NCBI RefSeq assembly: GCF_001427985.1
Contig: NZ_LMSA01000006.1
Coordinates: forward strand, 1-64,000
Direction of reading: 5' to 3'
Length of the DNA stretch: 64,000 bases
Source of the DNA: Knoellia sp. Soil729
GTDB taxonomy: Bacteria; Actinomycetota; Actinomycetes; Actinomycetales; Dermatophilaceae
Shown: piece by piece, positions 1 through 64,000 of the stretch
Position numbering within the stretch: position 1 is the stretch's first letter
How the letters are laid out: each line of letters starts with the position of its first letter
Made by a program: the position numbers and the translations under genes
The notes under the pieces: generated by a model
Database searches by the model: none
Seen by the model: only the letters and a program-made list of their open reading frames with translations
What the model was told of the DNA's origin: nothing

Positions 1-1173
1 CCGGGTGAACAGGCGCGCGGCGCGTCCGACGTCGAGGACCTCGCCGGCGGTGCCCAGGACGACGGGGATGATGTCGGCGTCGCAGGCGAGGCGGCGGATC
101 TCGGCGGGGCCCAGCAGGGTGCCCGCAGCGGTGGACCCGAGAACCGTGCCCGCACCCGTGCTGCCGGTGAGGGTCTGACCGAACGCGTCGGTGTCGGTGG
201 TGCAGCTGTCGGGCGTGCGGTCCGGCAGGGCGAGCAGTCGCAGGAGGTCGGCCAGGGCGATGGTGACGTGCAGTGTGGCGGACGCGGCGGCGGGGCCCTG
301 GCTCTCGGCGTCGCGGGCGGCGTGGCCGGTGATGATCGCGGCCAGGGCCTCGGCGCGGCGTTGGCTGTTGGGGCGTTCGTCGAAGACTCCGGTGAGGGGG
401 TCGGGGATCGGCTTGGACAACGGCCCCAGGGCCGCTTCGAGGGCGGCGCACTGTTCGGGGGTCAGGCCCATCCGGTACTCGGTGATGTCACCGTCGCTGA
501 CCTGCGGCTGGGTCAGGTAGGCCGCGGTCCGCAGCCGCCGCTGCTGGTCCTGAAGCTCGCCGTCGAGCCCGTGCTCGGCGAGCAGGCGGGTGCGGATCCG
601 CTTGGCATCCCTGGCGCCCCACTGCACCCCGTGGTCGAGGATGGCGTCGGTCACGGTCGGGACGGCGTCCTGCTGGAGTCGGTCCTTCATGCGGGCGATC
701 TCGGACAGGGCGGTCAGGGCCAGCGCAAGGGCAACCTCGCCGCTGACGACGCGGTCCCACACCCTGCCCTCGGGGCGGGTGGAGTCCGCGAACGCGCCGG
801 CCTGTGGGCCCTTGGTGGACCACTGGCCCTCCGGTGTCGCGTGCGCGACCTCAACGGCGAACGAGGCCAGCTGGCCCGCACCTGCCTGCCGGAGCGAGGG
901 GGCGTGCTCACGCACCCACGCATGCGCTGACCCCTCACCGCGGCGGGCGGAGGTGAACTCGCCACGGTGCGCCGCCTCGACAGCGATCACGACCTGCGCA
1001 GCACCGGCCTGCGCCTTGACGTCGTCGACCAAGGTCAGGAACTCCGCGAGCTCTGCCCCACTCAGTCGGTGGAGAATCTCGCGCACACCAGTCACGGCGG
1101 ATCGCGCGACGCCGAGTGCGTCACGAACGCTCCCCGTGTCACTGACCTCCGCCATGCTGCCGTCCATCCCCAT
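1..1173 (-). CDS. DUF222 (HNH endonuclease family) protein, C-terminus outside window
   Basis: The first 391 codons of a gene that continues past the left edge. The frame is open from an ATG at 1173 to base 1. The visible protein begins MGMDGSMAEV and carries the DUF222 pattern, ending with DADIIPVVLG...GEVLDVGRAARLFTR, the stretch that in this family lies just before the HNH nuclease domain. The HNH domain itself is therefore expected off-window and cannot be verified. Family members are abundant, multi-copy actinobacterial proteins of poorly known function, often linked to mobile DNA. ATGs at 1167 and 1155 are alternatives. I prefer 1173 because a TTGACA-18-GACAAT promoter places the transcription start on it. 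Confidence 0.85.
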   Translation of the reverse strand, partial: MGMDGSMAEVSDTGSVRDALGVARSAVTGVREILHRLSGAELAEFLTLVDDVKAQAGAAQVVIAVEAAHRGEFTSARRGEGSAHAWVREHAPSLRQAGAGQLASFAVEVAHATPEGQWSTKGPQAGAFADSTRPEGRVWDRVVSGEVALALALTALSEIARMKDRLQQDAVPTVTDAILDHGVQWGARDAKRIRTRLLAEHGLDGELQDQQRRLRTAAYLTQPQVSDGDITEYRMGLTPEQCAALEAALGPLSKPIPDPLTGVFDERPNSQRRAEALAAIITGHAARDAESQGPAAASATLHVTIALADLLRLLALPDRTPDSCTTDTDAFGQTLTGSTGAGTVLGSTAAGTLLGPAEIRRLACDADIIPVVLGTAGEVLDVGRAARLFTR

Positions 1174-1209
1174 GGCCCCATTGTCGTCGAACTTGCGTTC
1201 GAGTGTCAA
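1174..1209 (-). promoter_or_regulatory. Leaderless promoter of the DUF222 gene
   Basis: Minus-strand TTGACA (1209-1204), an 18-bp spacer and GACAAT (1185-1180), followed by 6 nt and the ATG at 1173. The spacing puts the predicted transcription start on the start codon. No Shine-Dalgarno sequence is present. Confidence 0.6.
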
Positions 1210-1484
1210 GGCTTTACGTGAGAATCTTTGAACGAATTTCGCTGTGGCACAACGAAATTCGGAAGAAGGCTTGGGACCACATAGGCCGTCTCAACCACCC
1301 TAGCCAGAGCCACCGACAGCTGGACCGAATGCAGGAGCAGTGCCGCTTGGTCGTCGCGCTCAGAGCGCTGTGAGCGAGACGGCGCCTCATCCGCCGTGAA
1401 GAGGAAACGCTCGAGCTCGACGTCCAGACCGAACCGCGCATAGGACGCAGGATCCCGATGCTTCCCAGGTCCTTTCGGTGACAC
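1206..1484 (-). CDS. Possible small hypothetical protein
   Basis: A 92-residue reading frame from a GTG at 1484 that fills the gap between the DUF222 gene and the divergent YjbR-like gene. It contains an ordinary-looking amphipathic stretch (FGLDVELERFLFTADEAP) and a hydrophobic C-terminal half. I recognise no family. Codon third positions are less GC-rich than in neighbours, and no ribosome site or promoter is clear, so it may be a degenerate or non-coding stretch. If it is not a gene, 1183-1507 holds only the two flanking promoters. Confidence 0.25.
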   Translation of the reverse strand: MSPKGPGKHRDPASYARFGLDVELERFLFTADEAPSRSQRSERDDQAALLLHSVQLSVALARVVETAYVVPSLLPNFVVPQRNSFKDSHVKP

Positions 1485-1507: not shown

Positions 1508-1817
1508 ATGACGCTGGACGAGATCGACGCGTTCGCCACGTCGCTCCAGGGCTGCAAGCGCAAGGGGCATCCCGGTCGCGTGGCCTGGTACGTCGACGAT
1601 CGGCTCGTCGTGCGCCAGGACCAGCCCGGCACTGTCCTCGTCCGCGTCGGGTTCGACGACCGCGAAAGTATGCTCGCGGCATACCCGCAGACGTTTGGGG
1701 TGCCGCCGCGCTGGGAGGCGCACCTGAAGGTGCAGGCCGACCTCGACGGCGACGCGGAGGCGATCCGCGAGGCCATCCGTCTGGCCTGGGCCATGCAGCG
1801 GCGACCCCGCCACCTAG
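1508..1817 (+). CDS. MmcQ/YjbR-like DUF protein, stop codon apparently lost by a 1-base frameshift
   Basis: About 100 residues starting [20 protein letters not shown], with the compact YjbR/MmcQ-like pattern (a [17 protein letters not shown] strand region, later [28 protein letters not shown], then a C-terminal helix [12 protein letters not shown]). The family adopts a CyaY-like fold with a putative DNA-binding role; its function is unknown. The frame does not stop at the expected tail: it runs on antisense through three genes to 3952. Removing one C from the CCCC run at 1805-1808 gives ...QRRPAT followed by TAG at 1815, a tail-to-tail junction with the next gene. TACGTT lies 6 nt before the ATG, consistent with a leaderless start. 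Confidence 0.65.
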
Positions 1818-2830
1818 GCGTCGATCGTCGACATGTCGCCGTAGCGCGCACCGACCACCGACTCGCGCGGGACGGCTGCGACGAGGGCCGCCAAGTCCTC
1901 GGCGGTGAGCTCGACGGACGCCGCACCGACGTTCTCCTCGAGGTACTTCACACGCTTGGTGCCGGGGATCGGCGCGATGTCGTCGCCCTGCGCCAGCACC
2001 CACGCAAGCGCGAGCTGCCCGGGAGTGGCCCCCTTGGCCTCGGCGATCTCGCGAACCTTCGCGACGAGGGCAAGGTTGGCCTCCAAGGCATCACCGCGAA
2101 AACGCGGGAAGTATGCCGTGAGACGCGAGTCGTTCGACTCGAGGTCCGACTCGGCCGTGATCGCACCCGTGAGGATGCCGCGGCCGAGGGGCGAGTAGGG
2201 AACGAGGCCGATGCCGAGCTCACGGATCGTCGGCAGGATCTCGTCCTCGATGTCGCGGGTGAACAACGAGTACTCGGTCTGCAGGGCGGTGATCGGGTGA
2301 ACGGCGTGGGCCCGACGGATCGTCTCGGGAGAGGCCTCCGAGAGGCCGAGGTGGCGGACCTTGCCGGCCGCCACGAGCTCGGCCATGGCGCCGACGGTCT
2401 CCTCGATGGGCACGTTCTTGTCGACCCGGTGCTGGTAGTAGAGGTCGATGTGGTCGACGCCGAGCCGCTGGAGCGACGCGTCGGCTGCCTTGTGCACGTA
2501 GTCGGGACGTCCGTTGACGCCGAGCCTGCTGCCGTCCTCACCGCGCTCGTTGCCGAACTTCGTGGCCAGCACGGCCTCGTCACGGCGGCCGGCGATCGCC
2601 TTGCCGACGAGGCGCTCGTTGGTGAACGGCCCGTACATGTCGGCCGTGTCGAGGAAGGTCACTCCGAGCTCGAGCGCGCGGTGGATCGTGGCGATCCCGG
2701 TGGCCTCGTCTCCGGTGCCGTAGAACTCGGACATGCCCATGCAGCCCAAGCCGAGGGCCGAGACGTCGAGGGCCGCGGGACCGCTGCCGAGGGTGCGGTT
2801 GGGGAGGGACGCTGCGTGGTGGGTGGTCAT
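1814..2830 (-). CDS. Aldo/keto reductase
   Basis: A 338-residue NADPH-dependent aldo/keto reductase of the (alpha/beta)8 barrel family that reduces aldehydes or ketones in the cytoplasm. The family tetrad is readable: Asp61 and Tyr66 in DTADMYG, Lys91 in ATKFG, and His134 in YYQHRVD. The C-terminal NADP-binding pattern ([14 protein letters not shown]) is present. The protein resembles the YajO/IolS-like bacterial group; the substrate is unknown. A TTG at 2842 lies upstream, but the ATG at 2830 sits 6 nt after a -10 element in a MerR-type promoter. It lies just downstream of a merR gene whose operator is repeated here, so induction by an electrophile or aldehyde through that regulator is likely (inference). 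Confidence 0.92.
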
Positions 2831-3869: not shown

Positions 3870-5144
3870 TCACCTGCGGATGGTGCAGAACTCGAAGTCG
3901 AAGCCTTCGAGCCGGCCCACGAGCGCGTCGCCGAGCGCCACCGCAGGGGTGAGCACCCCGCCGCGTGGGTCCAGCTCGTCCTGCACGAGCGAGAGTCCCG
4001 CCTGCCCGAGCATGATCGCGGTGCCCGAGTAGCCCGGGTCGTAGGGAGCGGCCACCTTCGTGCGGTAGCGGGCGCCGGTCGTCGCGGTCGTCTCGACCTC
4101 CATGACGAAGCGTCCCTTGGCCTGCGTGTCCTCGGACGGTCCCTCGCCCGGCTTCGGAAGCACGCGGTCGAGCACGCTGCGCGTCGGAGCCGTCGACATC
4201 CCCGCAAAGAGCCCCCCGAGCACCGCCGACGTGAGGCCGGCCTTGACGGCACCCATGGAGCCACGGCCCGTGTCCATCACCTCGTCGTAGCGGAACTCGC
4301 GACCATAGGACCAGTGCGTGAGGGCGTTGCTGCGGCGGACGATCCGGGTGTTGAACGACGCCATGAAGAAGGGGGCGACCCACCGCTGCGTCACCTCGTC
4401 GAAACGGGTACCCGAGAGGGCCTGCGCCTTGCTCAGGGCGCCTGCGATCCCACTGGGCTTCGGCCCACTCGGCCGGTTGCGCGACGGCGGCTCGGCCTCG
4501 CGGTCGGGGGAGAGGCCGTAGGGGTCACTCACGGCCCGCCGCCGCGCCGGGTCGGCGCCGGACTCGATGGCCTGCTGGCGCATCGAGTCGATGGTGCCGC
4601 CGCTGACGCCACCCCGCAGGGTCCGGACGTGGAGGAGCGTCTCGCCGAGCGTGCCCTCGCCGTCGGCCGCCACCCGCTGGGCGGTCTTCCACACGCCGAG
4701 GTCGGAGGGGATGGAGTCGAAGCCGCAGGAGTGCACGATCTTGGCGCCCGTGCGCTCGGCCTCGGCGTGGTTGGCCTCGATGCTGTCCCGGACGAAGAGG
4801 ACCTCGCCCGTGAGGTCCGCGTAGTGGGTGCCAGCGGCAGCGCAGGCCGACGCGAGCGGCATACCCAGCTTGGCGTAGGGACCCACGGTGGTGACCACGA
4901 CGCGGGTGCGCGCCGCGAGGTCCGCCACCGCGGCCGAGTCCGTCGTGTCCACGACGAGGAGGGGCCAGTCCGCAGCGGCGTCGGGCAGGGATGACCGCAC
5001 GTCGGCCAGCCTGGACTCCGAACGACCGGCCAGGGCGATGCGCACCGACGTCGGCGCGTGCTCCGCGAGGTGGGCGGCGGTCAGGCGACCGACGAAGCCG
5101 GTCGCGCCGACGAGGACGAGGTCGAACTCACGGGTGGGGCTCAT
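3870..5144 (-). CDS. Saccharopine dehydrogenase-like NAD(P)-binding oxidoreductase
   Basis: A 424-residue protein with an N-terminal Rossmann fold (LVLVGATGFVGRLTAAHLAE, GxxGxxG near residues 12-18) and the family signature GPYAKLGMPLASACAAAGTHYADLTGE. The mid-region (HSCGFDSIPSDLGVW) is typical of the trans-acting enoyl reductase/saccharopine-dehydrogenase-like proteins such as mycobacterial Rv2449c. The in vivo substrate is unknown and a lipid or membrane role is inference only. Divergent from the GlgC-like gene. The ATG at 5144 is preceded by TACATT and 6 nt, which excludes the longer frame to 5297. A 13-bp tandem duplication (ACGACGCACGCTC twice) lies just past and across its 3' end. Confidence 0.88.
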   Translation of the reverse strand: MSPTREFDLVLVGATGFVGRLTAAHLAEHAPTSVRIALAGRSESRLADVRSSLPDAAADWPLLVVDTTDSAAVADLAARTRVVVTTVGPYAKLGMPLASACAAAGTHYADLTGEVLFVRDSIEANHAEAERTGAKIVHSCGFDSIPSDLGVWKTAQRVAADGEGTLGETLLHVRTLRGGVSGGTIDSMRQQAIESGADPARRRAVSDPYGLSPDREAEPPSRNRPSGPKPSGIAGALSKAQALSGTRFDEVTQRWVAPFFMASFNTRIVRRSNALTHWSYGREFRYDEVMDTGRGSMGAVKAGLTSAVLGGLFAGMSTAPTRSVLDRVLPKPGEGPSEDTQAKGRFVMEVETTATTGARYRTKVAAPYDPGYSGTAIMLGQAGLSLVQDELDPRGGVLTPAVALGDALVGRLEGFDFEFCTIRR

Positions 5145-6974: not shown

Positions 6975-8230
6975 CCGAGCTGCACGAGGAGCCGCGCCCC
7001 GAGACTTCAGTCCCGGGCGCGGCTCCTCGTGCGCTGTCGCGTCTGGTGGGTATGCCGGCCGCGGACTTCGCGTCCGACGTCTGGTCCCGTGCGCCCCTGC
7101 TCACCCGGTCCAGCGACCTGCCCCGGGACTTCACCGACCTCTTCAGCGAGGCAGCGGTCGACGAGCTCGTCGCCCACCGCGGTCTGCGCACGCCCTTTGC
7201 CCGCATGGCCAAGGACGGGCGCACACTCCCCGACCGCAGCTTCACGCTCGGTGGCGGCGTCGGGGCAGGCATCTCCGACCAGCTGAGCGATGATCGCGTC
7301 CTCCACGAGTTCGCCTCTGGCGCAACGCTGGTGCTCCAGGCGCTGCACCGCACGTGGGCGCCGATCCAGGAGTTCTCGGCCGAGGTTGCCGCCGCCCTCG
7401 GGCACCCGGTGCAGGTCAACGCCTACGTCACCCCGCCCCAGAGCCAGGGCTTCGCCGACCACTACGACGTGCACGACGTCTTCGTGCTTCAGATCGCGGG
7501 CGAGAAGCGGTGGCGCGTCCGCCCACCAGTTCTCGACGCGCCGCTGCGTGACCAGCCGTGGGAGCAGCACCGGGCAGCGGTGGAGCAGGCCGCCACCGCG
7601 GAGCCCCTCCTCGAGGCGACCCTGAGCCCGGGGGACTGCCTCTACCTCCCGCGTGGCTACCTCCACGCGGCGACCGCACTCGGCGGCACCAGCATCCACC
7701 TGACCTTCGGTGTCCACACCTGGACGCGTCGCCACTTGGTCGACGCCCTCCTGGCTCGGGTCGGTGACCGTCTCAAGGACGACGTCGAGGCCCGGCGGTC
7801 CCTGCCGCTGCGGCCGAGCACCAGCCCAGCGGCGCAGGTGTCGTTCGACGACGACGCCGAGGTGGTGCGCTCGCTCGTGGCCAAGGCGCTGCAGGACATC
7901 GGTGTCGACGAGCTCGTCGATGCCCTGCGACCCGGGGTGCGGGCGTCCGCACGTGCCGAGCCCCTGGCCGTCCTCGCCCAGGCACGTCGAGCCGACGACG
8001 ACGTGACCGTGTGGCGTGTGCGCCGCGGCCTCGCCGCCCACTGGGAGGACAACGGGGGTCGCGCGACCCTTGTGACGCGGGTGGGTCGTCTGCCGGTCCA
8101 GGGCGACGAACGCGACGCGGTCACGGACCTGCTGGCCGGCATACGCGATCCTGCTGGGCTCGACTCCGAGCTGAGGCGGCGGCTGGCCCTGGCCGGGATG
8201 ATCGTCCCCGCGGACGTCAACGGCGGCTGA
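6971..8230 (+). CDS. JmjC/cupin-fold Fe(II)- and 2-oxoglutarate-dependent oxygenase (ROXA/Cupin_4 type)
   Basis: A 419-residue protein of the family of ribosomal oxygenases such as E. coli RoxA (YcfD) and human NO66/MINA53, which hydroxylate protein side chains. The iron triad is readable as His164-x-Asp166 (FADHYDVHD) and His232 (PRGYLHAA), with the cupin core from about residue 110 to 260 and a C-terminal winged-helix-like region. The GTG at 6971 overlaps the stop of the Gly-rich gene. Codons 5-20 lie inside a 16-bp perfect inverted repeat, so the first about 20 residues may be regulatory or the start may be further in. The 3' end overlaps the convergent ABC-F gene by 14 bp. Confidence 0.85.
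   Translation: MTELHEEPRPETSVPGAAPRALSRLVGMPAADFASDVWSRAPLLTRSSDLPRDFTDLFSEAAVDELVAHRGLRTPFARMAKDGRTLPDRSFTLGGGVGAGISDQLSDDRVLHEFASGATLVLQALHRTWAPIQEFSAEVAAALGHPVQVNAYVTPPQSQGFADHYDVHDVFVLQIAGEKRWRVRPPVLDAPLRDQPWEQHRAAVEQAATAEPLLEATLSPGDCLYLPRGYLHAATALGGTSIHLTFGVHTWTRRHLVDALLARVGDRLKDDVEARRSLPLRPSTSPAAQVSFDDDAEVVRSLVAKALQDIGVDELVDALRPGVRASARAEPLAVLAQARRADDDVTVWRVRRGLAAHWEDNGGRATLVTRVGRLPVQGDERDAVTDLLAGIRDPAGLDSELRRRLALAGMIVPADVNGG
6984..7030 (+). other. Perfect 16-bp inverted repeat inside the 5' end of the oxygenase gene
   Basis: ACGAGGAGCCGCGCCC (6984-6999) pairs exactly with 7015-7030. The 15-nt loop contains a second small stem (GACT/AGTC). It looks like a transcription terminator for the preceding Gly-rich gene, yet lies within the first codons of the coupled oxygenase, so it may act as an attenuator or dampen its expression. 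Confidence 0.7.
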
Positions 8231-9854
8231 CCTGACCGCTTTCGACGTGCCAGCGCTGGTCGAGCTCGACGTTCTCGAGGAGCCGGCGGTCGTGCGAGAC
8301 GAGCAGCAGGGTGCCGTCGTAGGACGCGAGCGCCTCCTCGAGCTGCTCGATCGCGGGCAGGTCGAGGTGGTTGGTGGGCTCGTCGAGCACGAGGACGTTG
8401 ACGCCGCGGGCCTGGAGCAGGGCCATGGCCGCGCGCGTGCGCTCGCCGGGCGAGAGCCGTGACACCGGGCTCGTCACCTGGTCGGCGCGCAGCCCGAACT
8501 TGGCAAGCAGGGTCCGGCGCTCGGCGGGCACGAGGTCGGGAACCGCCTCACCGAACGCGTCCCCGAGGGGCAGGTCCTCACGCAGGCCGCTGCGCGCCTG
8601 GTCGATCTCGCCGATGGCGACGCTCGCACCGAGGGCGGCGCTCCCGCTGTCGGCCTCGACCTGCCCGAGGAGCAGCCGCAGCAACGTCGTCTTGCCGGCG
8701 CCGTTGGGCCCGGTGATGCCGATGCGGTCGCCGGCGTCGACCTGGAGCGAGACCGGGCCGAGCGTGAAGTCGCCTCGGTGCAGGGTCGCCTCGTTGAGCG
8801 TGGCGACGACCGAGCTCGACCGTGGCGCCTGCCCGATCGAGAACTGGAGCACCCACTCCTTGCGCGGCTCCTCGACCTCCTCGAGGCGGGCGATCCGCGA
8901 CTCCATCTGGCGCACCTTGCGGGCCTGCTTCTCGGCGGAGTCGATGCTTGCCGCGCGCCGGATCTTGTCGTTGTCCGGGCTCTTCTTCAGGGCGTTGCGC
9001 ACGCCCTTGCTGCTCCACTCGCGCTGCGTGCGCGCTCGCGACTGCAGGTCGGCCTTGGTCCCGGCGAACTCGTCGTAGGCCTCGCGCGCGTGGCGCCGGG
9101 CGATCTCGCGCTCCTCGAGGAAGGACTCGTAGCCGCCGTCGTGCACCGCGACGGAGTTCTGGGCGAGGTCGAGCTCGACGATCCGGGTGACGACGCGCGA
9201 GAGGAACTCGCGGTCGTGCGAGACGAGGACGACGCCGCCGCGCAGGCCGGTGACGAACGCCTCGAGTCGCTCGAGCCCGGCCAGGTCGAGGTCGTTGGTC
9301 GGCTCGTCGAGCAGGACGAGGTCGAAGCGACTGAGCAGCAGCGCCGCCAGCGCCGCGCGGGCCGCCTGCCCGCCGGACAGCGAGGTCATCAGGGCGTCGC
9401 CGCCGACGTCGAGCCCGAGCTCGCCGAGCATGGCGGGGATGCGGTCCTCGAGGTCCGGGGCACCGCTCGCGAGCCAATGGTCCAGGGCGATCCCGTATGC
9501 CGTGTCCGCACCCGGCGTGTCGTGCGCCAGTGCCTCGGCGGCAGCCTCCATGGCCTCGGTCGCGGCTGTGGCGCCGGTGCGGCGGGCGAGGTAGCCGGCG
9601 AGGGTCTCGCCCTCGAGGCGCTCGTGCTCCTGCGGCAGCCAGCCGACGAAGGCGTCGCTGGGAGCGGTGGCGACCGAGCCCGCCAAGGGGGTGGACTTCC
9701 CGGCGAGCAGACGCAACAACGTGGTCTTGCCGGCACCGTTCGCCCCGACGACCCCGACGACGTCACCCGGTGCGACCGTGAGGTCGAGGTGCTCGAAGAG
9801 GGTGCGGTGGGCGCGACCCCCGGACAGGTCCTTCGCCACGAGGGTTGCGCTCAC
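8217..9854 (-). CDS. ABC-F family ATP-binding protein
   Basis: A 545-residue soluble protein with two ABC domains in tandem and no membrane segments. Walker A motifs are GANGAGKTT near the N-terminus and GPNGAGKTT near residue 370; signatures are LSGGQAAR and LSPGERTR; Walker B regions are LLDEPTNDLDL and VLDEPTNHLDL. The charged linker between them (RARTQREWSSKGVRNALKKSP) is the region that in ABC-F proteins reaches the ribosomal P/E site. ABC-F proteins act as translation factors or protect ribosomes from antibiotics; which applies here is unknown. GTG 9854 lies 6 nt after TAGTCT; GTG 9860 is the alternative. It follows xylB by about 55 bp but probably has its own promoter. Confidence 0.9.
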   Translation of the reverse strand: MSATLVAKDLSGGRAHRTLFEHLDLTVAPGDVVGVVGANGAGKTTLLRLLAGKSTPLAGSVATAPSDAFVGWLPQEHERLEGETLAGYLARRTGATAATEAMEAAAEALAHDTPGADTAYGIALDHWLASGAPDLEDRIPAMLGELGLDVGGDALMTSLSGGQAARAALAALLLSRFDLVLLDEPTNDLDLAGLERLEAFVTGLRGGVVLVSHDREFLSRVVTRIVELDLAQNSVAVHDGGYESFLEEREIARRHAREAYDEFAGTKADLQSRARTQREWSSKGVRNALKKSPDNDKIRRAASIDSAEKQARKVRQMESRIARLEEVEEPRKEWVLQFSIGQAPRSSSVVATLNEATLHRGDFTLGPVSLQVDAGDRIGITGPNGAGKTTLLRLLLGQVEADSGSAALGASVAIGEIDQARSGLREDLPLGDAFGEAVPDLVPAERRTLLAKFGLRADQVTSPVSRLSPGERTRAAMALLQARGVNVLVLDEPTNHLDLPAIEQLEEALASYDGTLLLVSHDRRLLENVELDQRWHVESGQVSRR

Positions 9855-11400: not shown

Positions 11401-12447
11401 TCAGTCCCAGGTGATGACGACCTTGCCGGAGGAACCCGCCGCCGCGACGGCATACGCCTCGCCTGCGTCGGCGAGCGGGAAGCGGTGGGTGACGGTCCGC
11501 TCGGGATGCTCGCCCCAGCGGGTGAGCAGGTCGAGCAGCTCGGCCATGTGACCGAGCGACGTCACCCACGACCCGTGCAGCGCCAGCTGCTTGTGGATGA
11601 GCAGGTCCGAGACCGCGAAGTCGATCCGGCCGCCCTCACCCACCATGACGCAGCGCCCGCGCGCGGCCGTGGAGGTCAGGGCCGCCAGGCGGGCCTGCTC
11701 ATTGCCGCTGCAGTCCAGGCTCACCTCGCACCCGCGGCCGCCGGTCGCGTCACCGACGGCGACGGCCAGCTCGTCCGGGTCGGTCACCACGACGTCCACG
11801 AGGCCGAGGTTGCGGGCCAGCTCGGCGCGCTCGGCATTGGGCTCGAGCCCGATGACGGTGGAGGCGCCGAGGTGCTTGCCGAGCATCGCGGCGGCAAGGC
11901 CGACCGGCCCGAGCCCGGTGACGAGGAGCCGGTCGCGACCACTCACCTCGGCGCGCAGCAGACCCTCGTATGCCGTCCCGAACCCGCACGTGACCAGCGC
12001 ACCGTCCACGTGGGTCAGGCCGTCGGGCAGGCGCAGGCAGGACACGGCCTCGGCCAGCATGAAGTCGGCATGGCCCCCGTCACGTTGCCAGCCATGCGCG
12101 GCGCGGGTGGGTGAGGTGCAGCCGATGGGGTAGCCGATCTGGCACTCGGCGCAGGAACCGCAGCCGGTGATGTGGTAGACCGCGACGCGCTCGCCGACCT
12201 CGAGCGTCGTCACGCCCGGCCCCAGCTCGACGACGTCACCGCAGGGCTCGTGCCCGGCGACCACGCCCTGGTAGGCCTCCGCCCCGTGGCCCAGGTGCTC
12301 GCGATAGATGGCGCGGATGTCGCTGCCGCACACCGACGATGCCCGCATCCGCAGCAGGACCTGGCCCGGCCCGGGAGCGGGCACGTCGACGGTGACGTGC
12401 TCGACCGTGCTGTCCCCCGGCAACCGCACGGCCTGCATCGTCGTCAT
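11401..12447 (-). CDS. Zinc-dependent medium-chain alcohol dehydrogenase
   Basis: A 348-residue NAD(P)-dependent dehydrogenase. The catalytic zinc region reads VCGSD and GHEP, and the structural zinc lobe is CGSCAECQIGYPIGC (four Cys in a 2-2-7 spacing). The Rossmann motif is VTGLGPVGLAAAMLG near residue 170. The start is fixed by the ATGA overlap with the stop of the upstream polyol dehydrogenase. Exact substrate unknown; a polyol or sugar is likely from its place between a sorbitol-type dehydrogenase and xylulokinase. The 71-bp gap to xylB holds no promoter I can support. Confidence 0.9.
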   Translation of the reverse strand: MTTMQAVRLPGDSTVEHVTVDVPAPGPGQVLLRMRASSVCGSDIRAIYREHLGHGAEAYQGVVAGHEPCGDVVELGPGVTTLEVGERVAVYHITGCGSCAECQIGYPIGCTSPTRAAHGWQRDGGHADFMLAEAVSCLRLPDGLTHVDGALVTCGFGTAYEGLLRAEVSGRDRLLVTGLGPVGLAAAMLGKHLGASTVIGLEPNAERAELARNLGLVDVVVTDPDELAVAVGDATGGRGCEVSLDCSGNEQARLAALTSTAARGRCVMVGEGGRIDFAVSDLLIHKQLALHGSWVTSLGHMAELLDLLTRWGEHPERTVTHRFPLADAGEAYAVAAAGSSGKVVITWD

Positions 12448-13514
12448 CGGTCGTCGGCCCGCTCGACACCCTGCGGATGGATGATCGACTTGATCGCGTG
12501 GGGGTCGGTGCGGGCGGCCGTGAGGGCGCCCTGCGTCCCGTCGAGGTCGAAGTGGCCGGTCGCCAGAGGAGCCAGCGACACCCGGCCCGACGCGACGAGG
12601 TCGATCGCCGTGGGCCACGTGTTGGCGTAGCGGAAGACACCGGTCACCTCCAGCTCCCGGTTCTGCACGTCGCCTAGCGGCAGCGCCAGGGTGTCGCCGC
12701 CCATGCCGATGAGGACGACCCGCCCGGCAGGGGCCGCCACGTGGATCGCTGCCCGGGTCGAACCCTCGTGACCCGAGCACTCGAGGACGACGTCGGGACC
12801 GGGGCGGCCGGCATACGCATCGCTCAGGGAGGTCGACGAGACGTCGACGACCTCGCTCGCACCCAAGGAGGAGGCGACGGACAGCCGGTGGGCGTTGACG
12901 TCGGCCACGACGACCTCGGATGCCCCGAAGGCGCTGGCGACCTGCGCCGCGAGCTGGCCCACCGGTCCCGCGCCCGTCACGAGCACCCGTACCCCGGGCG
13001 CGACACCGGCCCGGCGACAAGCCCAGATGCCCACCGACAGCGGCTCGAGCATCGCGCCCTCGTCCAGCGACACGGAGTCGGGCAGGGCGAAGGCGAAGGA
13101 CGACGGGTGGGTGACGTACTCGGCGAGCGTGCCGTCCACCGGTGGCGTCGCATGGAAGACCATGTCGGGGCAGAGGTTGTAGTGGCCGGTGAGGCACTGC
13201 TCGCACGAACGGCACGGCACGCCCGGCTCGATCGCCACCCGCTCGCCCACCCGCGCGGGGTCGACCCCGTCCCCGACCGCGACGATCACCCCGGCACTCT
13301 CGTGCCCCAGCACCAACGGCCCGGTGACGACATGGTCGCCGATGCGCCCGTGGTCGAAGTAGTGCGTGTCCGATCCACACACCCCGACCGAGCGCACCTC
13401 GATGAGCACCTCGGCCGCCGCAGGGCTGGGCAGCGGCCGTGTCTCCACGACGATCGACCCCGGCTCGGTGAGGACGGCCACCCGCATCGTGCCGGGCAGC
13501 GTCTTGGCCGTCAC
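12444..13514 (-). CDS. Sorbitol/xylitol dehydrogenase-type zinc dehydrogenase
   Basis: A 356-residue medium-chain dehydrogenase of the sorbitol/polyol subgroup, which oxidises polyols at C2. Visible are VCGSDTHYFDHGRIG, the GHE zinc motif, structural zinc lobe PCRSCEQCLTGHYNLC, the catalytic Glu in MLEPLSVG typical of sorbitol dehydrogenases, and the cofactor motif VTGAGPVGQLAAQVA. The start GTG at 13514 overlaps the stop of the upstream gene (GTGA), and the 3' end overlaps the next gene (ATGA). Together with xylulokinase it would convert xylitol to xylulose or sorbitol to fructose (inference). Confidence 0.9.
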   Translation of the reverse strand: MTAKTLPGTMRVAVLTEPGSIVVETRPLPSPAAAEVLIEVRSVGVCGSDTHYFDHGRIGDHVVTGPLVLGHESAGVIVAVGDGVDPARVGERVAIEPGVPCRSCEQCLTGHYNLCPDMVFHATPPVDGTLAEYVTHPSSFAFALPDSVSLDEGAMLEPLSVGIWACRRAGVAPGVRVLVTGAGPVGQLAAQVASAFGASEVVVADVNAHRLSVASSLGASEVVDVSSTSLSDAYAGRPGPDVVLECSGHEGSTRAAIHVAAPAGRVVLIGMGGDTLALPLGDVQNRELEVTGVFRYANTWPTAIDLVASGRVSLAPLATGHFDLDGTQGALTAARTDPHAIKSIIHPQGVERADDR

Positions 13515-37525: not shown

Positions 37526-37537
37526 ACGGGAATGATA
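37526..37537 (-). promoter_or_regulatory. Leaderless -10 element of marR
   Basis: Minus-strand TATCAT (37537-37532), TCCCGT, then the ATG at 37525. The operator palindrome lies where its -35 would be. Confidence 0.6.
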
Positions 37538-50507: not shown

Positions 50508-50983
50508 GCGACCCGCGCGTCTCCACTGCCGACCTCTGGGACGAACGCGGTGACACCCTGCAGTCCTGTTCGGTGCAGCTGCGTCACTATGGCGGGCACA
50601 CGGCATACGCCGGGGTGATCAGCACCGTGCGCTGCCACCGCGACAACGCCCTCGTGAAGGCTGCCCTGGCCGAGCCCGGCGACGGGCGGGTGCTCGTGGT
50701 CGACGGTGGCGGCTCGCTCGAGTCGGCGCTCATGGGCGACCTCATCGCGGGCTCCGCGGTGGCCCAGGGCTGGGCCGGTGTCGTCATCCACGGCGTGGTG
50801 CGCGATGTCGTGGCCCTGCGTGAGCTGCCATTGGGCGCTGTGGCGCTGGGCTCCAACCCGCGCAAGAGCGCCAAGGACGGGGTGGGCGAGCGCGACGTGC
50901 CGGTGTCGTTCGGTGGCGTCGAGTTCGTGCCGGGACAGCAGGTCTGGGTCGACGAGGACGGTGTGGTCGCCTCCCGCGCCTGA
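50504..50983 (+). CDS. RraA-like lyase (HMG/CHA aldolase or oxaloacetate decarboxylase type)
   Basis: 159 residues of the RraA fold. Readable are VVDGGGSLESALMGDLIAGSAVAQGWAGVV and HGVVRDVVALRELPLGAVALG, which include the metal/substrate-binding residues of class II pyruvate aldolases (the R-D of VVRD). Family members cleave 4-hydroxy-4-methyl-2-oxoglutarate or related acids and decarboxylate oxaloacetate; E. coli RraA itself inhibits RNase E. Location at the end of a tricarboxylate-uptake operon favours the metabolic role. Confidence 0.85.
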   Translation: MSDPRVSTADLWDERGDTLQSCSVQLRHYGGHTAYAGVISTVRCHRDNALVKAALAEPGDGRVLVVDGGGSLESALMGDLIAGSAVAQGWAGVVIHGVVRDVVALRELPLGAVALGSNPRKSAKDGVGERDVPVSFGGVEFVPGQQVWVDEDGVVASRA

Positions 50984-51001: not shown

Positions 51002-51054
51002 GTCTCGCATCCGAGACGGTATGCCGTCCGCGCACCTCACGCGGGCGGCATACC
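51002..51054. terminator. Double hairpin after the tct operon
   Basis: GTCTCG-CATC-CGAGAC (51002-51017) followed at once by a 15-bp stem with one mismatch, 51018-51032 against 51040-51054, whose arms contain GTATGCCG and CGGCATAC. Ends 17 bp before hutH. Confidence 0.75.
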
Positions 51055-57159: not shown

Positions 57160-57239
57160 GGGCCGCCCGTCGCGCACCTCCGTCTGGAATATCGGACAGG
57201 TATGCCGTGTGGTCCCGGCCCCGAAGCGCCTGCGGGGTG

Positions 57240-57251: not shown

Positions 57252-58502
57252 GTGACCTCCAACGACGCGACCACGGCCGGTGCTGAGGCGACCTTTGCGG
57301 GCATGTGGCGAGACCTCGCCCCGGTCGGTCGCGACGGTCGCAGCGGCGGCTACCAGCGGTTCGCCTGGACCCGCGAGGACCATACCCTTCGTGAGTGGTT
57401 CGCCAGCGAGGCCGAGCGGCGTGGACTCGACCTGACGGTCGACCGCGTGGGCAACCAGTGGGCGTGGTGGGGCGACCCCGACGCCGCCCTGGCCGCCGGC
57501 CGGCCGGGCATCGCCACGGGATCGCACCTCGACTCGGTCCCCGACGGTGGAGCGTTCGACGGGCCCCTGGGTGTGGTGTCGGCCTTCGCCTCCGTGGACG
57601 CCCTGCGCGAACGTGGCTTCGAACCCGACCGGCCGATCGCCGTCGTGAACTTCGTCGACGAGGAGGGTGCCCGCTTCGGGGTCGCCTGCGCCGGCTCACG
57701 CGTCCTCACCGGCGCGATGACCGCGGACCGGGCGCGCTCGCTCACCGACGCCGACGGTGTCTCGATGGCCGAGGCACTGCGTGCGGCCGGCCGCGACCCG
57801 GAGGAGCTCGGCCCCGACGCGGACAACGTCCGGCGGGTCGGCACCTTCGTGGAGCTCCACGTGGAGCAGGGCCGCCACCTGTCGCTGCCGGAGGTCGACC
57901 AGCCGGTCGCTGTCGGCAGCGACATCTGGCCGCACGGACGGTGGCGCCTCCACACCCTGGGCGAGGCCAACCACGCGGGGACCACGCGTCTGGCCGACCG
58001 CGACGACGCCATGCTGGGCTTCGCGGCCGCCGTCATCGCTGCTCGTCGGGCGGCCGAGTCCCACGGCTGCGTCGCCACGATCGGCAAGGTCGTCGTCACG
58101 CCCGGCGGGGTCAACGCCATCGCCAGCGAGGTCACCGGCTGGCTCGACGCGCGGGGGAGTGACGAGTCCGCGGTCCGCCGGGTCGTCGCCGACGTGACCG
58201 AGGTGGTCGAGGAGTTCGGCGGCCTCGTCGTCGAGGACTCCTGGACGGGCACGACACCCTTCGACCCGGGACTGGCGCGGCGGATCGCGACGCGACTGGG
58301 CGGCATACCGGTTCTGGGGACCGGCGCGGGACACGACGCCGGCATCCTCGCCAACGCGGGCGTACCGACCGCGATGCTCTTCGTCCGCAACCCGACGGGC
58401 ATCTCCCACTCACCGGAGGAGTTCGCGACCTCCGAGGACTGCCTCGCCGGTGTCGCGGCGCTGACGACCGTCCTTCTCGACCTCGCAGGGGGAGCATCGT
58501 GA
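57252..58502 (+). CDS. M20 family amidohydrolase (allantoate amidohydrolase/carbamoylase-like) in the hut cluster
   Basis: 416 residues. Zinc ligands and surrounding motifs of the M20 AAH group are visible: GSHLDSVPDGGAFDGPLGV, NFVDEEGARFG, FVELHVEQG, EANHAGTT and GISHSPEE. Members hydrolyse allantoate, N-carbamoyl amino acids or similar C-N bonds. It overlaps hutF by four bases (GTGA). The cluster lacks a recognisable HutG, and the HutF product N-formylglutamate needs a deformylase, so this protein is the obvious candidate (inference). Start GTG 57252 lies 6 nt after TGGAAT. Confidence 0.88.
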   Translation: MTSNDATTAGAEATFAGMWRDLAPVGRDGRSGGYQRFAWTREDHTLREWFASEAERRGLDLTVDRVGNQWAWWGDPDAALAAGRPGIATGSHLDSVPDGGAFDGPLGVVSAFASVDALRERGFEPDRPIAVVNFVDEEGARFGVACAGSRVLTGAMTADRARSLTDADGVSMAEALRAAGRDPEELGPDADNVRRVGTFVELHVEQGRHLSLPEVDQPVAVGSDIWPHGRWRLHTLGEANHAGTTRLADRDDAMLGFAAAVIAARRAAESHGCVATIGKVVVTPGGVNAIASEVTGWLDARGSDESAVRRVVADVTEVVEEFGGLVVEDSWTGTTPFDPGLARRIATRLGGIPVLGTGAGHDAGILANAGVPTAMLFVRNPTGISHSPEEFATSEDCLAGVAALTTVLLDLAGGAS

Positions 58503-59821
58503 CGACCTACTGGTGCGAGCACGCCCAGCTGCCCGACAAGGTGCACCGAGGTGTGCGGCTCACCGTCGACTCCGGGCGCATCAGCGAGATCGCCACCGAC
58601 ACGAAGCCGGGCGACTCCGACATCCGGCTGCACGGCGTCGTCCTGCCGGGCCTGGCCAACGCCCACAGCCACGCCTTCCACCGCATGCTGCGAGGCCGCA
58701 CCCACGGCGACGGCGGCAACTTCTGGACGTGGCGCAAACAGATGTATGCCGTCACCGAGCGTCTCGACCCCGACACCTATTTCGCCCTCGCGAGAGCCGT
58801 TTTCGCCGAGATGGTGGTCTCGGGCTACACGGTGGTCGGGGAGTTCCACTACCTGCACCACCGCCCGGGTGGGCGGCCCTACGACGACCCCAACGCCATG
58901 GGGGAAGCCCTCATCGCAGCCGCAGAGGAGGCGGGGATCCGGCTCACGCTCCTCGACGCCTGCTACCTCTCGGGTGGGCTGGACTCCTCGGGCCACCTCC
59001 CCCTCGATGAGGTGCAGGTGCGCTTCTCCGACGGGTCGGTGCAGGCCTGGGCAGAGCGCGTGGCTGCACTGCGCGACAGCGAGCTGGTGCGCATCGGAGC
59101 AGCCGCGCACTCGGTCCGCGCCCTCACCGGCGACCAGCTGACGGAGTTCGCCGAGGTGGTTGGCGACCGCCCCGTCCACGCCCACGTGAGCGAGCAGATG
59201 GGCGAGAACCTCGCGACCCAGCTCGTCTATGGCGCGAGCCCGGTCGAGCACCTCGCCGACACCGGCCTGCTGGGCGAGGGCTTCACCGCTGTCCACGCCA
59301 CCCACCTGTCCGAGGTCGACCTCGACCTCATGGGCCACTCGGGTGCGGACGCCTGCTTCTGCCCGACGACCGAGCGCGACCTCGCCGACGGGATCGGCCC
59401 GGCCTGCGAGCTCGCCGAGCGTGGGGTGCCGATCAGCCTCGGGTCCGACCAGCACGCCGTCATCGACCCGTTCGAGGAGATCCGCGGCATCGAGATGCAC
59501 GAACGGCTCAAGAGCCATGAGCGTGGTCGCTTCGGCGTCGCGCAGCTGCTCGAGATGGGGACCTCGGCGGGCTACCGCAGCCTGGGCTGGGACGGTGGCC
59601 GCATCGCCGTCGGCGCCCTCGCCGACCTCGTCGCCGTCCGCCTCGACAGCCGGCGCACCGGTGGCGTCGCGCCGTCCCAGATCATCTTCGGTGCGACCGG
59701 AGCCGACGTCAGCGACGTCGTCGTCGGCGGACGCCACGTGGTCTCGGCGGGCCGGCATGCGATCGGCCCCATCGACGACCTCGTGACGGAGGCCATCGTC
59801 GCCGTGCGGAGCGCTCCATGA
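58499..59821 (+). CDS. hutF: Formimidoylglutamate deiminase
   Basis: 440 residues of the amidohydrolase superfamily. Converts N-formimidoyl-glutamate to N-formylglutamate and ammonia. Metal ligands lie in [26 protein letters not shown] (with GENL), and the Asp in [23 protein letters not shown] is typical of HutF. Coupled to the upstream amidohydrolase (GTGA) and to hutI (ATGA). Confidence 0.95.
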
Positions 59822-61056
59822 GCGACGATGACGCGTCTGGCGCCCCCCGCCCCTCGGCAACGTGTGCGGAAGCGGCTGCTGGAGCAACCACCTCCGCAGA
59901 CGCCACGGTGTTCACCGGCATCGGGGAGCTCGTCACCTGTGACGGCACCGGCGACGCCGGCCTGGGTGTGCGCCGCGACGCCGCGGTCGTCGTCGACAAG
60001 GGGCGCGTCGCGTGGATCGGCGACTCGGCAGCCGCCCCGGAGGCCGACCGCGGCGTCGACCTCGAGGGCCGCGCCGTCCTCCCCGGCTTCGTCGACAGCC
60101 ACAGCCACCTCGTCTTCGACGGGGACCGCTCCGCGGAGTTCGCCGCCCGGATGACGGGGGAGCGCTACGACGGAGGAGGTATCGGCGTGTCGGTCGCTGC
60201 CACCCGGGCCGCCTCCGACGTGCGGCTGCGCGAGCTCGTCGGGGCACGCGTCGCCGAGATGCGGGCCCAGGGCACCACCACCGTCGAGATCAAGAGCGGC
60301 TACGGTCTCACCGTCGAGGACGAGGCGCGCGCCCTGCGTCTGGCGAGTGAGTTCACCACGGAGACGACGTTCCTCGGTGCGCACGTGGTGCCACCGGAAG
60401 CGCGCGGTGAGCGGGCGGCATACCTCGAGCTCGTCCTCGGGCCCATGCTGCAGGCCTGTGCGCCCCATGCGAAGTGGGCCGACGTCTTCTGCGAGCCGAA
60501 CTCGCCTCACGCCTTCACTGAAGACGAGTCCCGGGCGGTGCTCCTGGCCGCCCGCGAGGCTGGGCTGGGCCTGCGCGTCCACGGCAACCAGCTCGGTCAC
60601 GGGCCAGGGGCGCAGCTGGCGGTGGAGCTCGGTGCCGCGAGCGTCGACCACTGCACCTTCCTCTCCGCAGCCGACGTCGACGCCCTCGTCGCAGCCGCGG
60701 ACACGACGGTGGCGACCCTGCTGCCGGGAGTCGAGTTCTCCACGCGCTCGCCCTACCCGGACGCGAGGGGCCTGCTCGACGCCGGGGTGTCCCTGGCGCT
60801 CGCGACCGACTGCAACCCGGGCACGTGCTACTCGAGCTCGATGCCGTTCGTCATCGCCCTCGCCGTGCGCGAGATGGGGATGACGCCCGGTGAGGCGGTG
60901 TGGGCAGCGACGGCCGGGTCGGCCAAGGCCCTGCGACGCACCGACGTCGGCCGGATCGCCGTCGGTGGGCCAGCCGACCTGGCCGTGCTCGACGCACCGA
61001 GCCACCTGCACCTCGCCTACCGGGCCGGTGTCCCGATCGCCCGCGCCCTGACCTGA
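59818..61056 (+). CDS. hutI: Imidazolonepropionase
   Basis: 412 residues. Hydrolyses 4-imidazolone-5-propionate to N-formimidoylglutamate, linking HutU and HutF. Metal-binding [20 protein letters not shown], family [25 protein letters not shown], and the catalytic Asp in [15 protein letters not shown]. The N-terminal about 30 residues ([18 protein letters not shown]) are a low-complexity extension beyond the usual start. Last gene of this hut block. Confidence 0.95.
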
Positions 61057-61082: not shown

Positions 61083-61361
61083 TCACATGTCGCGGTCGAG
61101 GATCTCCTTGGGCTTGTGACCCGCGGACTTCGCATAGAACTGGGCGGCCTTGCGGGTCGTCAGCGTGCGGGCGACGCCGGCGGCGAGACCCGTGAGGGCG
61201 GCATACGCGAGCGCCGTGACGAACGGCGAGTCCGGGTCCTTGGGGTCGAACTTGGCGTCCTGCCCCGCCTTCTGCCAGATCTGGTCGGCCACCTTGGTCG
61301 CGGCGATGCCCGCGACGATCGCCGAGCCGGTCCCGAGGATCTTCCACACCATGCTGCCCAT
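61083..61361 (-). CDS. DUF4235 family small membrane protein
   Basis: 92 residues. An N-terminal amphipathic or membrane helix (VWKILGTGSAIVAGIAATKVAD), a short loop and a second hydrophobic helix (VTALAYAALTGLAAGVARTL), then a basic C-terminus. Typical of DUF4235, an actinobacterial family of unknown function. AAGGAG 5 nt before the ATG at 61361 decides the start. Convergent with hutI, divergent from the riboswitch-controlled thiamine operon. Confidence 0.85.
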   Translation of the reverse strand: MGSMVWKILGTGSAIVAGIAATKVADQIWQKAGQDAKFDPKDPDSPFVTALAYAALTGLAAGVARTLTTRKAAQFYAKSAGHKPKEILDRDM

Positions 61362-62305: not shown

Positions 62306-62312
62306 GCAGGCG

Positions 62313-64000
62313 GTGAGCCCTGCCACGCCGGCCACGGGTGGCCACGTCACGCTCGACGGCGTGACATGGCGCCCCTACGGCCGGCGCGAACCCGTCCTGC
62401 GCGACATCTCGCTGTCCCTCGCGCCCGGCGAGCGGGTGCTCCTCGCCGGTCCGAGCGGGTCGGGCAAGTCGACCCTGCTGCGCGCCATCGCCGGGCTGCT
62501 CGAGACCGCCGACGCCGGCGAGCTGACGGGTTCGGTCCTCATTGACGGGCACGCACCGGGTGCGCGCGCCGGCGAGGTCGGGCTCGTCCTGCAGGAGCCG
62601 GGTGCCGGGGTGGTCGCCTCCTCGATCGGCCGAGACGTCGCGTTCGGTCTCGAGAACGTCGGTATGCCGCGTGCGGACATGCCGGCCGTCGTCCGTTCCG
62701 CAGTGGGCGCGGTGGGACTGCCCCTGCCCCTCGACACCCCCACCGGTGCGCTGTCCGGAGGTGAGACGCAGCGGCTGGCACTTGCGGGCGCCTTGGCGCT
62801 GGCCCCCACTGTCCTGCTGCTCGACGAGCCCACCGCCATGCTCGACCCCGGCCACGCCGCCCAGGTGAGGACGAGCGTGGGACGCGCGCTCGCGGCATAC
62901 CCGATCACGACCGTCGTCGTCGAGCACGTCCTCGGACCATGGGTCGACCTCGTCGACCGCCTGCTCGTCCTCGACGCGCAGGGCGCACTCGTCGCCGACG
63001 GACCGGTGCGCGACGTGCTGGCTGGCGAGCGGGAGCGGCTGCTCGACATGGGCATCTGGGTCCCGGACGCGCCGCCGCCCACCCCACTCGTGTCCGGAGC
63101 CCTGTCGGCTGCCCCGGCATCCGCGCGAGGGCAGGAGGTCACAGCGACGCCGCTCACGATCGAGCGCACCGTTCGTCTCCTCGACGGCTCGACCCGCACC
63201 TCCACCGCTGCTCGTCTCGAGGCCGAGCTCGCGCCCGCGCCGGGCACGGCCACCGCGCTCGTGGGGCCGAGCGGCTCGGGCAAGTCGACGGTCCTGCTCG
63301 CATTCGCCGGGGCGCTTGCACCGTCGGACGGTGCGGTCACCGCCGGCGACGAGCCGGTCTCCGAGCTGTCGACGCACGCGCTCGCCGGTCGACTCGGCTG
63401 GGTGCCGCAGTGGTCGAGCTCCACGATTCTCGGACGCACCGTCCTCGACGAGGTCCTGGTCACGAGCCGGGCGCTGGGGGAGGAGACCCCCGAGCGAGTC
63501 GTCGAGGCGCACGCCCTGCTCAGCAGCCTCGGACTGGGTCACCTCGAGACCGCCGACCCACGCGAGCTCTCCGGCGGCGAGCAGCGGCGCCTCGCCATCG
63601 CCTCCGCGATCCTGCACCAGCCGCCCTTGCTCCTCGCCGACGAGCCCACGGTCGGCCAGGACCGGCACACCTGGGCCGCGGTCGTCGGGCTGCTCGACTC
63701 CTATCGACGCGCCGGGGGTGCCGTGCTCGTCTCGACCCACGATGCGGCAGTGGTCGAACGCTCCGACGGAGTGGTCGAGCTGACCCCGCCGCCGAAGGAA
63801 CCGCCGCCTCCCCAGCCGCGCCGCGTCCTCGCCGCCCACGCCGGACCCTTGGCGCTGCTGGTGTCGGCGATCGTCGCCATCCCGGCCGGAATCCTCCCGG
63901 GCCACTGGCACACCTCGCTCGTCGTCCTTGCCGTCCAGGTGGCCTTGGCCTGCCTGGCCCTGTCGGCTCCCGGGGTGGGAGCTCGGCCCAGTGGCCGGCT
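62313..64000 (+). CDS. ECF transporter double ATPase fused to T component (YkoD-YkoC type), C-terminus outside window
   Basis: At least 562 residues, open at the right edge. Two ABC domains: Walker A GPSGSGKST near residue 46 with signature LSGGETQR and LLLDEPTAMLD; second Walker A GPSGSGKST near 318 with LSGGEQRR and LLADEPTVGQD. From about residue 505 (RRVLAAHAGPLALLVSAIVA) hydrophobic helices begin that look like the T component (YkoC), so energising and transmembrane parts are joined in one chain. The GTG at 62313 is used. Together with YkoE it forms a thiamine-precursor importer under TPP control. Confidence 0.88.
   Translation, partial: MSPATPATGGHVTLDGVTWRPYGRREPVLRDISLSLAPGERVLLAGPSGSGKSTLLRAIAGLLETADAGELTGSVLIDGHAPGARAGEVGLVLQEPGAGVVASSIGRDVAFGLENVGMPRADMPAVVRSAVGAVGLPLPLDTPTGALSGGETQRLALAGALALAPTVLLLDEPTAMLDPGHAAQVRTSVGRALAAYPITTVVVEHVLGPWVDLVDRLLVLDAQGALVADGPVRDVLAGERERLLDMGIWVPDAPPPTPLVSGALSAAPASARGQEVTATPLTIERTVRLLDGSTRTSTAARLEAELAPAPGTATALVGPSGSGKSTVLLAFAGALAPSDGAVTAGDEPVSELSTHALAGRLGWVPQWSSSTILGRTVLDEVLVTSRALGEETPERVVEAHALLSSLGLGHLETADPRELSGGEQRRLAIASAILHQPPLLLADEPTVGQDRHTWAAVVGLLDSYRRAGGAVLVSTHDAAVVERSDGVVELTPPPKEPPPPQPRRVLAAHAGPLALLVSAIVAIPAGILPGHWHTSLVVLAVQVALACLALSAPGVGARPSGR

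Follow-up and report, generated by a model that had tools for sequence, protein, structure and literature searches.

DNA uptake sequences (DUS) of Neisseriaceae genomes are balanced between the two strands and evenly spaced, the neisserial ComP protein belongs with the type IV pili, which are the pilus type of known uptake-sequence users, and the uptake signal sequences (USS) of the Pasteurellaceae display flanking preferences. Neisserial DUS are described as reaching thousands of copies per genome and as forming family-level dialects (PMC3630211), with uptake in Neisseria proceeding via ComP (PMC3868556). Closely spaced inverted DUS pairs are reported to act as terminators, with a bias towards intergenic DNA, DUS sites to be more conserved than their surroundings, and neisserial recombination tracts to be enriched in DUS (PMC2397512). 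Orientation bias or uneven reading-frame use is reported for known uptake sequences (PMC2346458), and the USS receptor is predicted to be a type IV minor pilin (PMC12616744). In Micrococcus luteus, transformation is reported to require comEA/comEC and both tad clusters (PMC4322843). The present analysis concerns the octamer GTATGCCG of Knoellia sp. Soil729, described here in the first 64,000 nt of contig NZ_LMSA01000006.1 (the window, meaning the whole of that stretch), in 456 kb sampled from its genome and in the genome as a whole (3.6 Mb). Judged by its sequence pattern, the octamer is probably an uptake sequence, in a type of host new for such sequences (Gram-positive, with Tad-type machinery), and it stands apart from the systems of Neisseria and the Pasteurellaceae. 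No earlier report of this motif was found in searches of an open-access library.

GTATGCCG occurs exactly 46 times in the window. The plus strand carries 22 of these copies and the minus strand 24, in full agreement with the counts of an earlier note on this DNA. One coordinate of that note, 47333, is wrong, as the copy sits at 47323. The copies, including two convergent pairs, are as follows.

1677..1684, minus strand: GTATGCCG copy, exact match
2111..2118, plus strand: GTATGCCG copy, exact match
4857..4864, minus strand: GTATGCCG copy, exact match
7050..7057, plus strand: GTATGCCG copy, exact match
8137..8144, minus strand: GTATGCCG copy, exact match
9495..9502, plus strand: GTATGCCG copy, exact match
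11448..11455, minus strand: GTATGCCG copy, exact match
11968..11975, plus strand: GTATGCCG copy, exact match
12809..12816, minus strand: GTATGCCG copy, exact match
13583..13590, plus strand: GTATGCCG copy, exact match
14501..14508, minus strand: GTATGCCG copy, exact match
14939..14946, plus strand: GTATGCCG copy, exact match
18245..18252, plus strand: GTATGCCG copy, exact match
19332..19339, minus strand: GTATGCCG copy, exact match
19744..19751, plus strand: GTATGCCG copy, exact match
20352..20359, minus strand: GTATGCCG copy, exact match
21075..21082, plus strand: GTATGCCG copy, exact match
22581..22588, minus strand: GTATGCCG copy, exact match
24588..24595, minus strand: GTATGCCG copy, exact match
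25354..25361, plus strand: GTATGCCG copy, exact match
27804..27811, minus strand: GTATGCCG copy, exact match
27874..27881, plus strand: GTATGCCG copy, exact match
32207..32214, plus strand: GTATGCCG copy, exact match
32389..32396, plus strand: GTATGCCG copy, exact match
33837..33844, minus strand: GTATGCCG copy, exact match
36504..36511, minus strand: GTATGCCG copy, exact match
36865..36872, plus strand: GTATGCCG copy, exact match
37520..37527, minus strand: GTATGCCG copy, exact match
38777..38784, plus strand: GTATGCCG copy, exact match
39460..39467, minus strand: GTATGCCG copy, exact match
44438..44473, convergent pair GTATGCCG...CGGCATAC (copies at 44438 plus and 44466 minus): 36-nt hairpin, -23.5 kcal/mol, intergenic, centre 31 nt past the stop codon
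47323..47330, minus strand: GTATGCCG copy, exact match
49689..49696, plus strand: GTATGCCG copy, exact match
49725..49732, plus strand: GTATGCCG copy, exact match
50601..50608, minus strand: GTATGCCG copy, exact match
51019..51053, convergent pair (copies at 51019 plus and 51046 minus): 35-nt hairpin, -26.4 kcal/mol, intergenic, centre 52 nt past the stop codon
54529..54536, minus strand: GTATGCCG copy, exact match
57200..57207, plus strand: GTATGCCG copy, exact match
58301..58308, minus strand: GTATGCCG copy, exact match
58744..58751, plus strand: GTATGCCG copy, exact match
60416..60423, minus strand: GTATGCCG copy, exact match
61199..61206, minus strand: GTATGCCG copy, exact match
62662..62669, plus strand: GTATGCCG copy, exact match
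62893..62900, minus strand: GTATGCCG copy, exact match

All 46 occurrences of the 7-mer GTATGCC in the window are followed by G (almost every one, according to the earlier note), and the resulting octamer differs from its own reverse complement and is thus non-palindromic. Against the 46 copies observed, 100 dinucleotide-preserving shuffles of the window contain 0.72 on average and never more than 3. Under a trinucleotide model GTATGCCG displays the top z-score among all 8-mers of the window (46 copies versus 1.3 expected) and again among those of the 456-kb sample (271 versus 8.4). The genome contains 2,138 copies, 1055 forward and 1083 reverse, while the control, the same letters reversed, amounts to 38 + 51 = 89. 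The over-representation claimed earlier thus stands but is larger than the "about 20-fold" then given, at ~32-fold in the sample under the trinucleotide model and 24-fold in the genome relative to the reversed control (2138 versus 89).

Genes of the sample were called with a simple codon-score caller, by which 85-94% of three sampled pieces is coding, and the boundaries between intergenic and genic classes are for this reason approximate. The called genes contain 203 copies of the octamer. Permuting the codons inside each gene, which preserves every protein and its codon usage, leaves 19.0 +/- 3.4 copies over 100 such synonymous shuffles, with a maximum of 26, in agreement with the selection on DNA proposed in the earlier note. 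The choice of synonymous codons follows the octamer closely. Tyrosine is encoded by TAT in 94 of the 112 contexts where this completes the octamer and in 272 of 2284 elsewhere. Similarly, GCA is used in 68 of 116 octamer-matching contexts and in 1268 of 17238 others. Of the 27 ATA codons in the sample, 19 lie within the octamer, and the finding thus withstands the refutation that the earlier note had set for itself. The claim that the octamer occurs in all frames holds, although the frames are unevenly used: 94 and 68 of the genic copies are in the two Tyr-Ala or Ala-Tyr frames, 19 read Gly-Ile(ATA), 18 read Met-Pro and 4 occupy the other two. The octamer is maintained at the DNA level and not for the protein. 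An abundant short asymmetric core and uneven reading-frame use are shared with the Pasteurellaceae USS, which differ in sequence, in phylum and in a receptor predicted to belong to the type IV class.

The density of GTATGCCG is 0.51 per kb in genes, 1.93 in co-directional gaps, 1.86 in convergent and 0.79 in divergent ones, and is thus 3.8-fold higher between co-directional genes than within genes. Spacing is more even than random (coefficient of variation 0.85 versus 1.00 simulated, p 0.003), with a variance/mean of 0.57 for counts per 10 kb. The strand balance described earlier is borne out by the near parity of the genome-wide counts, and the most uneven of 12 bins of at most 40 kb reaches 6:11, the replication origin not being mapped. 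Even spacing and maintenance at the DNA level would also suit a chromosome-maintenance or recombination signal, either Chi-like or, as for the highly iterated palindrome HIP1, of unclear role, which would be read inside the cell and whose spacing would be kept by selection. Chi and the FtsK-orienting polar sequences (KOPS) are skewed to one strand, unlike GTATGCCG. HIP1 of cyanobacteria is an abundant octamer of unclear role, hugely over-represented in a lineage as GTATGCCG is; in contrast to the Knoellia octamer, HIP1 is a perfect palindrome, and GTATGCCG also forms oriented paired hairpins at gene ends. A signal of this kind seems to us an unlikely explanation, to which the distribution described below adds further points on both sides.

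Neighbouring copies less than 80 bp apart in the sample comprise 13 convergent, 7 divergent and 4 tandem arrangements. The convergent GTATGCCG...CGGCATAC pairs of 18-40 nt, sought with gaps of at most 40 nt, number 11 and all lie in intergenic DNA. Their centres are 31-76 nt beyond a stop codon, and they form hairpins of -9.3 to -34.1 kcal/mol. Hairpins past stop codons, together with the intergenic enrichment, could reflect a nucleoid- or terminator-associated binding site, that is, an architectural or transcription-ending element. However, the 11 close convergent pairs account for only 22 of the 271 sampled copies, the 203 intragenic copies occur in both orientations where a terminator would be harmful, and the same positions lack the octamer in the Phycicoccus jejuensis group (0 of 44). 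An architectural role, which the earlier note had listed as an alternative, fares worse than uptake because it does not alone explain oriented hairpins together with clade-wise absence, and we regard it as very improbable.

The sites are also conserved in position. Another Knoellia genome (G007, 81% identity) keeps 12 of 16 sites exactly, against 30% for composition-matched 8-mers, while K. subterranea keeps 6 of 8 (matched 8-mers 27%) and K. remsis 4 of 6 (31%). In other motif-rich genera, at 73% identity, 34 of 68 site-genome pairs are kept, whereas the motif-poor P. jejuensis group, at 74% identity, keeps 0 of 44; the matched value is 17% in both comparisons, and one site can count against several genomes. 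Of 14 replaced sites shown for the P. jejuensis group, 10 are one or two substitutions away from the octamer. In Knoellia, positions -13 to -4 relative to the octamer are richer in AT, with z 6.9 for the Soil729 genome and 4.1 for its congeners.

Variants of the octamer distinguish genera of the family, here denoted by g numbers. In 69 genomes counted, GTATGACG is present in all five of g27 (1622-1966 copies, a ratio to GTATGCCG of 0.7-1.1) and is common in g4 (1557), g5 (834), g12 (597), g34 (563), g35 (319 and 423), g6 (347) and g18 (344), while it is near background in Knoellia (26 and 44), g32, g53, g39, g22 and g25. A g35 genome displays the variant CGTATGCCG, where C precedes 33 of 43 octamer copies, and a g16 genome the variant GTATGCCGCTGRGC, where CTG follows 17 of 18. 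In genome G023 (L083, L084, L299) the octamer is extended to ~17 bp, GCCGTATGCCGCTGRGC, with 12 of 18 copies between genes, which suggests a longer dialect in that genus. In Flexivirga (L124 and L138), which the tree output assigns to Dermacoccaceae, the motif is present and any of the four bases can stand at its position 6. No replacement motif that could be trusted was found in 20-140 kb per motif-poor genome. In G128 (L042, L068, L073-L077), a motif-poor genome within a motif-rich genus, CGTAGACC occurs 39 times in 140 kb versus 4.1 expected, which probably reflects a Val-Tyr codon effect. Copy number, dialects, inverted pairs at gene ends, intergenic bias, site conservation, strand balance and even spacing are all points of likeness to the Neisseriaceae DUS.

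The nine Knoellia genomes searched all hold 1,971 to 3,277 copies. Across the family (Intrasporangiaceae in NCBI; 149 genomes of 53 genera), 81 genomes contain at least 600 copies, 18 contain 100-599 and 50 fewer than 100, and 30 of the 53 genera include at least one genome with 600 or more. The 273 genomes searched from 19 other families of the order all stay below 600 (at most 177, control 135). The same is true of 392 genomes drawn across the phylum from outside the family, a few of which also belong to the order set. The highest count in that draw is 386 in a 7.5-Mb genome (control 176), and one 1.8-Mb genome has 161 versus 30. Outside the family the exact octamer alone was sought, and unrelated tags there would therefore be missed.

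A similar distribution emerges from the named loci surrounding comEC (3-22 kb each, from the best 80 of the ComEC scan). The motif is present in those of Knoellia, Pedococcus, Phycicoccus elongatus, Phycicoccus sp. Soil802, Terrabacter, Humibacillus xanthopallidus, Intrasporangium oryzae, Intrasporangium chromatireducens, Arsenicicoccus, Nostocoides jenkinsii, Ornithinimicrobium and Flexivirga. Loci of Janibacter, the P. jejuensis group (with Nostocoides sp. Soil756), Nostocoides sp. F2B08, Intrasporangium flavum, one Humibacillus metagenome-assembled genome, Kytococcus and Dermacoccus contain 0-2 copies, and those of outside families 0 to 3, the 3 being in a Kribbella. Among the matches listed, the closest named relatives of the Soil729 ComEC are those of Knoellia subterranea (80%) and K. 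remsis (74%), with which the protein groups in a ComEC tree, placing the host in Knoellia or very near it. The tree has 80 rows, 79 named loci and the Soil729 protein, and counts as motif-rich a locus with about 4 or more copies per 20 kb; L140 (4 copies in 22 kb) is left out, no ComEC long enough having been called. The motif label changes 8 times on this tree versus a mean of 26 when shuffled, and the starred branches force 5 changes. This is tentatively read as a motif present early in the family with several later losses, the deep forks of the tree being weakly supported. The presence of the motif in many genera with clade-wise absence would also suit a signal for chromosome maintenance or recombination. 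Background counts in several clades with an otherwise similar comEC neighbourhood, and the genus-level variants, argue against such a signal.

The earlier note also named a modification-enzyme target as an alternative. In this explanation the octamer would be recognised by a modifying or restricting enzyme, and it would be enriched since its modified copies label DNA as self. Asymmetric contiguous sites are typical of Type III, BREX or Eco57I-type enzymes. The Soil729 genome has one weak match to the Eco57I family (PF07669, E 2.1e-8), and an Eco57I-type match of some kind is found in 18 of 27 motif-rich genomes; such matches are nevertheless absent from the other 9 and present in 22 of 31 other genomes. 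N6_N4_Mtase (PF01555) is absent from the Soil729 genome and found in only 9 of the 27 motif-rich genomes, yet in 15 of the 31 others. Neither PF01555 nor PF07669 therefore supplies a cognate methyltransferase in every motif-rich genome, these being the two families searched, and restriction tends to deplete sites rather than to enrich them. As these two methyltransferase families, which can read asymmetric sites, do not track the motif, this explanation fares worse than uptake, and we give it very little credence.

Competence genes, proposed as a point of comparison in the earlier note, are present, although they do not track the motif. ComEC is found in 145 of the 149 family genomes. In the Soil729 genome ComEC, 792 residues long and with the Pfam domains Competence and Lactamase_B, adjoins ComEA (SLBB and HHH_3). 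The same genome contains two Tad-type loci, one of which is confirmed by Pfam for T2SSE and T2SSF, has a TadE match below the cut-off and encodes a small pilin-like protein assigned to DUF4244; the remaining Tad names are assigned by position and by the look of the sequence. A second locus type, read in relatives and not in Soil729 itself, consists of TadA-B-C, a small Flp-like gene and then TadE-, TadE/F- and Tad-domain proteins, the same gene order as in a tad cluster of M. luteus, a species of the same order as the family of Knoellia. Points of difference are that the main text of the M. luteus report (PMC4322843) does not contain the term "uptake sequence" and that no other family of the order searched shows enrichment of the octamer. 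The Soil729 system differs from the Neisseriaceae DUS in sequence, in phylum and in its Gram-positive envelope, and because pilM is missing from 75 of 78 family genomes while Tad loci are found.

Several components were considered as discriminating between motif-rich and motif-poor genomes. Secretion ATPases (PF00437) occur in 78 of 78 genomes. ComEC and the gene order of the comEA-comEC and Tad loci are the same in motif-rich and motif-poor genomes, ComEC being called in all 9 motif-rich loci and in all but two of 12 motif-poor ones, the two misses being low-GC loci poorly handled by the caller. A full set of Tad minor pilins is present in 15 of 16 motif-rich loci (not in G057) and in 6 of 9 motif-poor ones; among the latter the set is partial in G090 and not seen in G075 and G094, while it is full in the intermediate G108. 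The Tad locus of G109 was dropped as TadA was not found. Motif-poor genomes may retain competence without specificity, or a fast-evolving candidate minor pilin may have changed its binding.

The abundance of the octamer varies along the genome. Genes of 64-68% GC have 0.13 copies per kb, versus 0.45-0.61 in genes of 68-76% GC, and genes with the most typical codon use have 0.33, below average genes. A 14-kb stretch with a single copy (L023:5557-19589, corresponding to 205.6-219.6 kb of C1 of the Soil729 genome) encodes glycosyl transferases, a sugar transferase, an acyltransferase and a UDP-sugar dehydrogenase and is likely a variable surface-polysaccharide locus, and a WXG100/subtilase locus contains no copy. 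One phage of a motif-rich host carries 2 copies in 49 kb versus 0.94 expected. The phage-portal profile PF04860 has no match in any of 45 motif-rich genomes; such prophages may be rare, or the model may miss many actinophages. Among the IMG/VR loci examined for the paired motif, 2 of 80 hold at least 5 copies, out of at least 120 matching stretches, and are uninformative about hosts.

The uptake explanation is supported by a set of features consistent with it, namely maintenance at the DNA level, equal use of the strands, regular spacing, hairpins where genes end, sites conserved in position, variants between genera and absence from whole clades. The uptake-like role suggested in the earlier note is thus supported by the sequence pattern, though not proven. 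We consider it quite probable that GTATGCCG serves Knoellia and much of its Gram-positive family as the core of a DNA uptake sequence, a tag by which self DNA is recognised in natural transformation, and likely that it represents a third independent origin of uptake sequences, the first in Gram-positives, with a Flp/Tad-type competence pilus, its own dialects and repeated losses. We infer uptake, a receptor and a drive that would act together as follows. A competence pilus, probably of the Flp/Tad type, would carry a minor pilin or other surface protein that prefers GTATGCCG. Bound DNA would pass via ComEA and ComEC and then recombine by homology. Tagged fragments would enter more often, so that the tag would spread and be kept by biased gene conversion, a molecular drive that would also maintain it as hairpins at gene ends. 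Where a lineage lost specificity, the tag would decay.

A number of observations weigh against uptake. The main weakness is that com and Tad genes are also found in motif-poor genomes and the machinery therefore does not predict the motif. In particular, no Tad minor pilin tracks the motif across the loci read (16 motif-rich, 9 motif-poor), and the type IV pilus gene pilM, with matches in just 3 of 78 family genomes, was rejected as the discriminating machinery. Of nine groups examined for AT-richness at -13 to -4, five show it weakly (z 1.1-2.5) and two lack it, the seven groups outside Knoellia ranging from z -0.8 to 2.5. No U-run is found in the 11 paired-octamer hairpins of the sample, and we therefore only infer a terminator role. 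Depletion of the octamer in accessory or variable DNA is only hinted at, and a site-free stretch of 6.3 kb holds the core gene recA. Any strongly selected sequence-specific chromosomal function could produce much of the same pattern. Furthermore, no competence or uptake experiment was found for Intrasporangiaceae in the open-access library searched.

Other repeats are present in the same DNA. Two 58-nt copies at 20433-20490 and 32271-32328 of the window are 91% identical, each with an inverted repeat CTCTCACCTCGC...GCGAGGTGAGAG, and possibly represent another dispersed palindromic element. Four degenerate 80-nt direct repeats occupy 6636-6958. A second dispersed repeat of ~25 bp contains GCAATMAGT with a conserved upstream flank AACGSG and occurs mostly as inverted pairs ~50-60 bp apart, with 30 matches in the 456-kb sample (L013-L032) and one pair in the window (18413-18483); it looks like a repetitive extragenic palindromic (REP)-type element.

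If the octamer is an uptake sequence, adding it to DNA would be a practical means to boost transformation in many actinobacteria from the environment. Its occurrence in a third family, of a different phylum and with a different type of pilus, would show that sequence-specific uptake evolves repeatedly. The old question whether uptake sequences exist through selection or through molecular drive would become testable in a clade whose many related species have, lack or vary the motif.

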